Of a stretch of DNA of 38,731 nt, positions 11,440-13,416 are shown piece after piece. This DNA comes from Terriglobia bacterium (GTDB lineage: Bacteria; Acidobacteriota; Terriglobia; UBA7540): positions 1 to 38,731 of the forward strand of contig JAIQEZ010000033.1 in NCBI GenBank assembly GCA_020073545.1, given 5' to 3'. The position numbers and the translations under genes were made by a program. The first letter of the stretch is position 1; every line of letters begins with the position of its first letter. The notes below the pieces were generated by a model. That model saw nothing but the letters and a program-made list of their open reading frames with translations. It had not been told where the DNA came from and made no database searches.

Positions 11440-12483
<1,044 letters not shown>

Positions 12484-12506
12484 GGCTTGGCTTCCTCCCC
12501 AAAATG

Positions 12507-12533
12507 AAAAAGCCCACTCGCTGCGAGTGGGCT
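12507..12533 (-). terminator. intrinsic terminator of the aroF attenuator
   Basis: On the minus strand AGCCCACTCG-CAG-CGAGTGGGCT is a perfect 10-bp stem with a 3-base loop, followed by TTTTTC. It ends about 24 bases before the aroF start codon, and the aroF ribosome-binding site follows directly. A terminator here makes sense only if transcription is conditionally allowed through it. Confidence 0.88.
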
Positions 12534-12611
12534 GGCCTTGCTTACGATTGCTTTCTCTTAGTGCAGACCAGCGCCACTCTACCGGCTTGGAGCAAAGCTC
12601 CAATACCGGTA
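12525..12611 (-). promoter_or_regulatory. attenuator: hairpin over the leader-peptide codons plus antiterminator
   Basis: The first hairpin pairs TACCGG (12611-12606) with CCGGTA (12585-12580), and inside it TTGGAGC with GCTCCAA across a TTT loop; it overlaps codons 14-23 of the leader peptide. Immediately after it, GAGTGG-CG-CTGG (12579-12568) can pair with CCAG-C-CCACTC (12535-12525). The latter is the 5' arm of the terminator, so antiterminator and terminator exclude each other. A ribosome at the leader stop codon would mask 12579-12568 and let the terminator form. A ribosome stalled on aromatic codons would leave it free. The pairings are seen directly; the mechanism is inferred. Confidence 0.78.
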
Positions 12612-12650
12612 CGTAAAGTAGGTAAACGAGCTGGCGTTGGATCCGAACAT
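12579..12650 (-). CDS. aromatic leader peptide (23 aa) of aroF
   Basis: The ATG at 12650 opens a 23-codon frame, [20 protein letters not shown] then PSR, ending in TAG. Eight of 23 residues are aromatic (F2, F9, Y11, F12, Y14, Y16, W17, F19), seven of them within codons 9-19. This is the pattern of a translated sensor peptide in a transcription attenuator. Phe, Tyr and Trp are all represented, as would suit the common first enzyme of the pathway. No Shine-Dalgarno sequence precedes it. A -10 element TATACT ends ten bases before the ATG (12660), so the message probably starts at or just before the start codon. The frame ends exactly where the antiterminator segment begins. Confidence 0.78.
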
Positions 12651-12659
12651 CGAAGAGGC

Positions 12660-12688
12660 AGTATACAGCAACCCAGAAGGCGCCGCAA
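12660..12688 (-). promoter_or_regulatory. promoter of the aroF leader
   Basis: On the minus strand TTGCGG (12688-12683) is followed by a 17-base spacer and TATACT (12665-12660; five of six -10 matches). The predicted transcription start at 12653-12650 coincides with or just precedes the leader ATG, giving a leaderless or near-leaderless leader peptide. Confidence 0.5.
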
Positions 12689-12769: not shown

Positions 12770-12795
12770 AAAAAGGGCCTCCCCGCGGGAGGCCC
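12770..12795 (-). terminator. intrinsic terminator of an unassigned upstream transcript
   Basis: On the minus strand GGGCCTCCC-GCG-GGGAGGCCC forms a 9-bp stem followed by TTTTT (12774-12770). It lies upstream of the aroF leader promoter, so it does not belong to aroF. No coding gene on the minus strand leads into it. Confidence 0.82.
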
Positions 12796-12990
12796 GAGAA
12801 GTCTAGCGAGTCGACGATCCAGGTGCTGTGAGCGGGGGAGAGGAGCCCCTCATAGCTTTACCCTCACCCCGCTCACTCACACCTTGGAAACTCCAAGGTA
12901 GCATTTCCGGCGGTCGGATCAAACGTCCCGTCTGACCGGCAAGTCGGTGGGAACTGGCCAGACACTAAACTCTCCACCGGATCCGTCCCT
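12796..12990 (-). ncRNA. candidate structured small RNA ending at the 12770-12795 terminator
   Basis: No protein frame here has family features, but the minus strand is rich in hairpins leading into the terminator. They are GGTGG...CCACC, CGGTC...GACCG, the perfect ACCTTGGA-GTT-TCCAAGGT, and a long arm pairing TGAGCGGGG with CCCCGCTCA, extended inward by GAGG/CCTC. The 5' end and promoter are not clear, so the left-hand limit is a guess. I compared it by memory with 6S RNA, SRP RNA, tmRNA, RNase P and common riboswitches and found no convincing match. Confidence 0.4.
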
Positions 12991-13416
12991 GTTAATCACC
13001 GCTCCTTTCCTTTCTTCAGCAACTCACGAAGCAGCGTTGTTATTGGGGCCTGCACCTGCACCCCAGTTATGCCTGATGATAGAAACCCTCCGAACCGTGG
13101 TCAAGTGGCTCTACAGGGGGGACGGAAATAGTTCCGATGGCTATACAACGGAGTGCAGCTATGGCCATGCTCGCGCAACAGGTTGTATGGGCATGATTTC
13201 CATACCGCCGGTGGTAGTCCGAAGCCGCAGACCCTCTCTCGCACGACGCTCTTCACTTTGACTCAGCCTTAACACAGGCAGCAATATCTCCGGTCAAACG
13301 CAACTCTTTCGACTTACGGGTGTTTGAACATATTGAACGCGAACATGTTGCATGGCACGGCGTCTGGCTTCAAGAGCTCCCAGGCAGGTATTCATTGAGG
13401 TTAGCGAGGAGGAAAC
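12991..13416. other. intergenic region without a recognised gene
   Basis: The stretch has several short readings, the longest on the plus strand ending at 13261. None shows a ribosome-binding site, domain or plausible composition. The promoter of the downstream gene must lie here; a weak candidate is TTGACT at 13258-13263 with CAATAT at 13282-13287. I see no repeat or mobile element. Confidence 0.4.

Follow-up and report, generated by a model that had tools for sequence, protein, structure and literature searches.

How is the first enzyme of the common aromatic pathway turned on in a soil-type Acidobacterium whose gene for it follows a short open reading frame (ORF) rich in aromatic codons? 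The locus in question belongs to contig G000:C19 (minus strand), which was analyzed as a single stretch of 38,731 nt (the window), and the nearest named relatives are MAGs labelled Acidobacteriota, Terriglobia and Bryobacterales. The gene, aroF (11440–12483, ATG at 12483), encodes a protein matching the DAHP synthase families TIGR01361 (395.8 bits, cut-off 267.75) and PRK08673 (491.8 bits, cut-off 335), from which we take it to be an enzyme of type I-beta. An earlier note on this sequence had proposed that a promoter, a leader ORF, a hairpin, an antiterminator and a terminator are arranged before aroF as a ribosome-sensed attenuator. Our analysis points to a trp-type ribosome-mediated transcription attenuator that would read charged tRNA-Phe, tRNA-Tyr and tRNA-Trp, a reading to which we give a probability of about 0.9. 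If it is true, the ribosome checks whether Phe, Tyr or Trp is scarce before the pathway is turned on, and the aroF leader gains a likely function together with a mechanism and an input that can be tested.

Organization of the aroF leader

All five elements named in the earlier note were found on the minus strand upstream of aroF. The sigma-70-like promoter (12660–12688) consists of a -35 element TTGCGG (12688–12683) and a -10 element TATACT (12665–12660) separated by 17 nt. A consensus scan of the window listed the terminator described below and not this promoter, which we call because it is conserved across loci. The leader peptide ORF extends over 23 codons from an ATG at 12650 to a TAG ending at 12579, and homologous peptides are found before aroF in other genomes; as had been noted, eight of its 23 residues are aromatic, with Phe, Tyr and Trp all represented. 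Within the ORF, codons 2–8 (12628–12645) form region 1, which is predicted by folding to pair with region 2 when the ribosome is absent from region 1. It is followed by the aromatic codon cluster F9-Y11-F12-Y14-Y16-W17-F19 (12594–12626), and a predicted nested hairpin (12580–12611), the codon hairpin of the earlier note, covers the last aromatic codons. Region 2, the 5' arm of the antiterminator (GAGTGG-C-GCTGGTC, 12566–12579), has its first base in common with the last one of the stop codon; the two elements had previously been said to abut. Region 3 (GGCCAGCCCACTC, 12525–12537) is common to the antiterminator and to the intrinsic terminator formed by regions 3 and 4 (AGCCCACTCG-CAG-CGAGTGGGCT-TTTT, 12507–12533), the latter being supported by a terminator scan and by conserved pairing. 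A Shine-Dalgarno-like GGGGAGG (12494–12500) precedes aroF.

The leader RNA is more stable than its shuffled versions (fold z -4.76), none of 200 shuffles being equally stable. The leader is also the sole ORF on either strand of the window that passes a filter for aromatic ORFs (14–40 aa, at least six F/Y/W residues, at least 30% aromatic, all three types present), although the filter listing begins it at an in-frame TTG (12671) located upstream of the -10 element. When the filter was applied to 517,940 strand-bases from 43 loci (L005–L047), 31 of the 33 ORFs that passed were located no more than 300 nt upstream of aroF.

Conservation among aroF orthologues

For 66 aroF orthologues with at least 73% identity (the window, L085–L106 and L005–L047), the upstream regions were compared; five of these duplicate another, leaving 61 distinct regions. 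Except for L036, which is filed as Patescibacteria, the distinct orthologues belong to Acidobacteriota or to the window's own order. The counts leave aside two truncated orthologues without upstream sequence (L082 and L107); in the relatives L071, L079 and L080 the true start was not located. L100, which has just 248 nt upstream, was mis-indexed in the -10 and Shine-Dalgarno spacing, the region 1:2 clusters and the peptide and codon counts given below, which introduces an error of at most one locus.

The full set of a terminator, a predicted antiterminator arm and a leader ORF containing aromatic residues occurs in 57 of the 61 distinct regions; at least five aromatic residues occur in 52 of these 57 leaders and at least four in 56, and all three aromatic amino acids are present in 55 of 58 leaders. 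One locus (L036) shows an equal plan with unrelated sequence. Together with L036, the loci L009, L027, L102, L100 and L035 count against the proposal of the earlier note. The cassette is absent from L009 and L027, both of which have a TATACT element approximately 7 nt before the aroF ATG; therefore, aroF itself would be leaderless there, and these two loci serve as natural comparisons. L102 has kept the terminator with a degenerate ORF, a stop replaces the otherwise conserved Trp codon in L100, and the leader of L035 lacks Trp, while that of L103 has four aromatics among 22 residues. The plan extends to L048, whose aroF is 65% identical, and to L050. No convincing aromatic leader was found at the more distant Acidobacteria loci L051, L052, L053 and L054; the remaining loci of L051–L084 were covered by a script screen only. 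The alignment of related upstream regions, proposed in the earlier note as a check, thus favours it with respect to the aromatic codons, and the aroF leader is real and conserved.

The same regions bear on where the transcript begins. In 52 of 58 loci, the best -10 hexamer ends at a distance of 7–10 nt from the start codon of the leader, compared with 13% of shuffles; as the start codons were chosen partly by the position of the -10 element, they were also chosen by aromatic content alone, which left 53 of 58 unchanged and kept the 7–10 nt spacing in 48 of 58. A Shine-Dalgarno-like motif precedes the leader in one of 58 loci and aroF in 46 of 58. Because of the -10 spacing, the transcript would start at the leader AUG or a few bases from it, which makes a leaderless start of the ORF probable.

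Mutually exclusive terminator and antiterminator

Several features expected of an attenuator are found together at this locus: an ORF enriched in codons for the products of the pathway lies upstream of the gene, an intrinsic terminator is placed between this ORF and aroF, and an antiterminator that uses the 5' arm of the terminator excludes it. The earlier note had described this shared arm, and the overlap between the 2:3 and 3:4 pairings is preserved across the homologues. In an alignment of 60 leaders (A1), 97.2% of the terminator cells are paired, as against at most 55.0% when the arms are slid, and six of nine pairs have changed on both sides, a number reached by none of 500 shuffles. For the antiterminator, 87.1% of cells are paired (at most 47.1% slid) and the covariation score is 0.190, which is reached by none of 500 shuffles and compares with at most 0.082 in slid versions. 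Seven of its 13 pairs have changed on both sides; this count carries less weight, as seven is also reached by 13 of 500 shuffles and one slid version gives eight. In L034, all three strands have changed together (GAGCGG / CCGCTC / GAGCGGG), as an exclusive switch needs, and the relocated terminator of L094 and L106 still leaves a CCAC core available to region 2.

The earlier note had asked for compensatory changes in three stems, and they were seen in the terminator and the antiterminator; for the codon hairpin, the share of paired cells is 62.2% (56.5% in shuffles, at most 54.0% slid). The zone of this hairpin folds more stably than expected from dinucleotide shuffles, with a mean z of -3.2 in 58 loci, values below -1 in 50 of them and -6.8 in the window. 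What did not hold is its role as the helix that competes with the antiterminator. The two lie next to each other and the minimum-energy fold contains both, for which reason the hairpin was rejected as a competitor.

A likely longer-range helix between regions 1 and 2

That role would fall to a helix of longer range, in which codons 2–8 (CGCCAGCTC) are complementary to region 2 (GAGTGGCG). This pairing has an energy of -20.4 kcal/mol in the window, which is stronger than expected from shuffles of synonymous codons (p 0.003). In transcripts cut after region 2, its probability is 0.91 for the window, with a median of 0.79 and values above 0.4 in 55 of 58 loci. Region 1 binds more strongly than random synonymous codons would (mean z -1.15 in 56 loci, 19 of them below p 0.05), the means of clusters at 70% identity are negative in 24 of 27 cases (p 1.3e-5), and a decoy with the region reversed gives p 0.40. 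Moreover, 78.7% of the cells are paired, compared with at most 55.1% in slid versions. Five pairs have changed on both sides, against 4.6 in shuffles and five to seven in slid versions, and RNAalifold found no consensus pairs in alignment A2. Because the covariation is weak and the RNAalifold result empty, we regard it as likely rather than proven that the codon hairpin is nested inside this 1:2 helix. Pairing of codons 2–8 with region 2 would give the leader the four-region logic of trp, and a role for region 1 would account for the conserved, non-aromatic A-S/N-S stretch of the peptide. The model of the earlier note would require two changes, the likely 1:2 helix and the probable leaderless start of the ORF.

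Codon geometry and simulated ribosome positions

The distance from the last aromatic codon to region 2 has a median of 17 nt (interquartile range 17–18, range 5–26), and that from the stop codon has a median of 2 (interquartile range 2–8.75, range -22 to 23). Across 55 loci, aromatic codons account for 42–65% of the sense codons located 12–41 nt before region 2 and for two of 120 at 0–11 nt. A ribosome whose front edge is assumed to reach approximately 12 nt beyond the first A-site base would leave region 2 just uncovered when it occupies the last aromatic codon. This placement of the codons is the one that attenuation demands, since region 2 would be spared by a stalled ribosome and covered by one at the stop codon, and we read the border 12 nt before region 2 as a clean genomic footprint of the stalled ribosome.

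Ribosome positions were simulated in 55 loci on transcripts in which region 4 had not yet been made. The median probability of 2:3 pairing was 0.93 with the ribosome at Phe codons, 0.96 at Tyr, 0.83 at Trp, 0.00 at the stop codon and 0.19 in the absence of a ribosome (the means being 0.74, 0.73, 0.63, 0.13 and 0.39, respectively). Other sense codons open 2:3 equally (median 0.85), so the specificity would reside in the codons and not in the folding; the simulation supports the geometry, not the specificity. In the complete RNA of the window, the predicted terminator probability is 1.00 at the stop codon and averages 0.08 at aromatic codons. At equilibrium, however, the mean terminator probability at aromatic stalls of the complete RNA falls below 0.5 in just 10 of 55 loci. 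As the terminator wins at equilibrium in most homologues, switching would have to be co-transcriptional. The trpL leader of E. coli (L114), simulated with an assumed transcription start site, behaved similarly: in the cut transcript, region 3 pairing reached its peak of 0.52–0.59 on the second Trp codon and immediately after it, against 0.07 at the stop codon, whereas in the complete RNA the terminator was favoured at every ribosome position. Folding of complete RNA at equilibrium was rejected as a test of switching, being uninformative for most homologues and for E. coli trpL.

A model of attenuation at aroF

Taken together, the comparative evidence supports the ribosome-sensed attenuation of aroF proposed in the earlier note, and we suggest the following sequence of events. 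The RNA would begin with the leader AUG or no more than a few bases away from it, so that a ribosome would load on a leaderless RNA. With all three aromatic aminoacyl-tRNAs in ample supply, the ribosome would reach the stop codon and cover region 2, region 3 would pair with region 4, and RNA polymerase would terminate. If one of the aminoacyl-tRNAs were short, the ribosome would stall in the aromatic cluster and disrupt region 1 or the nested hairpin; region 2 would then be free, 2:3 would form ahead of the synthesis of region 4, and aroF would be transcribed. The leader would act as an OR gate, in which a shortage of Phe, Tyr or Trp suffices. Without a ribosome, region 1 could hold region 2 in the 1:2 helix, which would make termination more likely. 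We are least certain of this part of the model, especially in the window, because region 3 gains an upstream partner there when the ribosome is absent: once transcribed, it is predicted to pair upstream with a probability of 1.00, and termination of untranslated RNA would depend on kinetics.

Codon content and alternative explanations

Phe and Tyr interchange across the leader peptides with the aromatic character kept. In the conserved core [YF]R[FY]W, Trp, the most conserved position of the leader, is found in 56 of 57 peptides and Arg in 42 of 58, and the flanking positions carry 31 Tyr and 21 Phe, and 34 Phe and 20 Tyr, respectively. The codons used for Phe differ between the leaders (139 TTT and 51 TTC) and the aroF genes of L005–L047 (86 TTT and 316 TTC), while those for Tyr are unshifted (26:92 in leaders, 55:196 in aroF genes). 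The TTT bias may reflect slower wobble decoding at the sensor or a structural need.

This bias, confined to Phe, raises the possibility that one or two of the aromatics matter, most likely Phe; in favour of such a narrower form of the three-aromatic attenuator, with which it overlaps, the aroR leader of Corynebacterium glutamicum is reported to be Phe-responsive (PMC11802643). We consider it possible but rather doubtful, given that all three residues are kept in 55 of 58 leaders with Trp as the most conserved position, and that the TTT bias could stem from the nested hairpin.

The conservation of Trp and Arg in the core could instead belong to an arrest peptide. In that model, exemplified by TnaC, the nascent chain senses a free amino acid in the exit tunnel; here, the nascent [YF]R[FY]W would respond to free aromatic amino acids and not to tRNA charging. 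We judge this very unlikely: Tyr and Phe replace each other at the flanking positions, the nested hairpin, into which the motif extends, could account for the conservation of the motif, and with the present geometry arrest by a plentiful amino acid within the cluster would raise expression.

Still less probable is a metabolite-binding riboswitch or a T-box with an incidental ORF, for which the unusual conservation of GAGTGG-C-GYTGG...CCCACTC might speak. Rfam-curated leaders include Trp_leader and T-box, but none of 4227 Rfam families reached its gathering score anywhere in the window. A riboswitch, a T-box or a known leader was rejected on this ground, and a permissive scan gave sub-threshold matches only (among them PyrG_leader over the terminator, 28.2 bits against 65); such a regulator would also have to accommodate the aromatic-for-aromatic swaps and the abrupt end of the aromatic codons 12 nt from region 2. 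A plain leader terminator that fixes the basal level of aroF, with the ORF unused for sensing, would suit the cassette-free L009 and L027 and the kept terminator with a degenerate ORF in L102, yet it is just as improbable, since it would explain neither the conserved antiterminator nor the codon geometry nor the aromatic content.

Putative related switches in other genomes

Besides the single exact-pattern copy of the switch in the window's own genome, relatives of the three-aromatic attenuator were searched for in 396 genomes of the phylum using a covariance model built from A1 (E 0.001, with stricter filters that lose weak matches). It matched 19 genomes and missed 377. Of the 19 matches, 16 lie before aroF-type or trpE genes, partly in other families. 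Seven are before aroF-type genes (the window, L123–L127 and L140), identified by Pfam in L123, L125 and L140 and by resemblance in the others. Nine precede trpE in other Acidobacteriota families, the gene being identified by Pfam in L128, L129, L133, L134 and L138 and by resemblance in L131, L132, L136 and L139. An aromatic leader was listed for seven of these nine, and five of the seven leaders contain WW or WWW; the script listed none for L133 and L136. The matches in L130, L135 and L137 were counted as false, since they have neither an aromatic leader nor a recognised aromatic-pathway gene downstream. On balance, we lean slightly towards a widespread family of such leaderless attenuators in Acidobacteriota, with a three-aromatic OR gate, codons hairpinned within the 1:2 loop and Trp-rich sisters at trpE. 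This suggests that the classic trp logic, slightly altered, is used both for the shared first aromatic step and for trpE.

By the ORF filter, no comparable leader was found before the second aroF, trpE or pheA of the window's genome. A second DAHP synthase gene in this genome (L121, G000:C200), 53% identical, is located behind a chorismate-mutase-like ORF and a stretch that, as we read the sequence, is presumably the end of trpA. Aromatic leader ORFs with terminators were also observed before DAHP synthase genes in L055, L057, L058, L059, L062 and L067 (gp11 Acidobacteria, Deltaproteobacteria/Syntrophaceae-like and Calditrichota), where the plan is similar and the leaders are unlike that of the window. 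Finally, the aroF leaders of L036 and L049, whose records are named Patescibacteria and 'bacterium', share a distinct leader, FTQ[ST]AETGNFEL, and a terminator, CTCAGC-GCAA-GCTGAG.

Comparison with known systems

The trpL leader of E. coli has a four-region logic, codons for the product in its leader peptide and a terminator that includes region 3, and the last two features are common to the aroF leader, for which a four-region logic is likely. The aroF leader differs from it in the gene that follows, the use of three amino acids, the extra hairpin in the likely 1:2 loop, the probable leaderless start and switch arms that are conserved in primary sequence, with no gathering match to Rfam in the window. 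Canestrari et al. (2020) reportedly described leaderless polycysteine short ORFs in mycobacteria, which are leaderless regulatory attenuators that concern cysteine and other genes. An attenuator at aroR-aroF of C. glutamicum is said to have been described by Neshat et al. (2014). There, an aromatic leader peptide precedes a DAHP synthase gene and its stalling is reported to enhance transcription (excerpts of PMC11802643 and PMC4046766); the leader contains Phe-Tyr-Phe and is said to respond to Phe and not to Tyr (excerpt of PMC11802643). It belongs to Actinobacteria, Trp is not mentioned in these excerpts, and the comparison with the aroF leader is by description only. Acholeplasma uORFC-13-1, a uORF with a terminator found exclusively upstream of aroF, is predicted to act by attenuation (excerpt of PMC8632094); according to the same excerpt, it is based on at least one Phe, has an RBS and comes from another lineage, unlike the leader in the window. 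For aroF of E. coli and Shewanella, attenuation sensing tyrosyl-tRNA was once hypothesised (excerpts of PMC2659441 and PMC8632094); this gene encodes a tyrosine-sensitive enzyme of Gammaproteobacteria and is likened to the window aroF by description only. The attenuator RNA of Sinorhizobium meliloti (rnTrpL/peTrpL) starts with the ATG of its leader ORF (excerpt of PMC7298713), and it concerns trpE and Trp only, with peptide and RNA acting in trans as well.

Because of the precedents in C. glutamicum, Acholeplasma and E. coli, attenuation by aromatic leaders is already known as a kind, which weakens the earlier note's suggestion that a composite aromatic leader before a type I-beta DAHP synthase is undescribed in this lineage. 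What is added here is this lineage, a leader of three amino acids including Trp, the nested layout and the sister switches at trpE. No description of the Acidobacteria aroF switch was recognised in the literature searched, a set outside which most subscription journals fall, and one study that counts leader genes in Acidobacteria has neither 'aroF' nor 'DAHP' in its main text, the part considered (PMC4833913). Such switches have hardly been described in this group so far.

A candidate small RNA upstream of the leader

Just upstream of the aroF leader, on the minus strand, lies a structured non-coding stretch of approximately 310 nt (12770–13110), which has promoter-like elements TTGACC/TATCAT (13104–13076) and a strong terminator (12795–12775). 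Its fold z is -3.43, none of 100 shuffles being as stable, and it has no Rfam match at the gathering score. No homologous stretch was seen in the 440 nt examined at L085 and L089. Homologous stretches occupy the equivalent place in L142, L087, L088, L090 and, partly, L086, and another aroF leader begins at the end of L142; partial matches were found on other contigs in G002 and G009. We propose this stretch, in which a GAGGGGCTCCTCTC hairpin is conserved, as a candidate for a small RNA that is so far unlisted.
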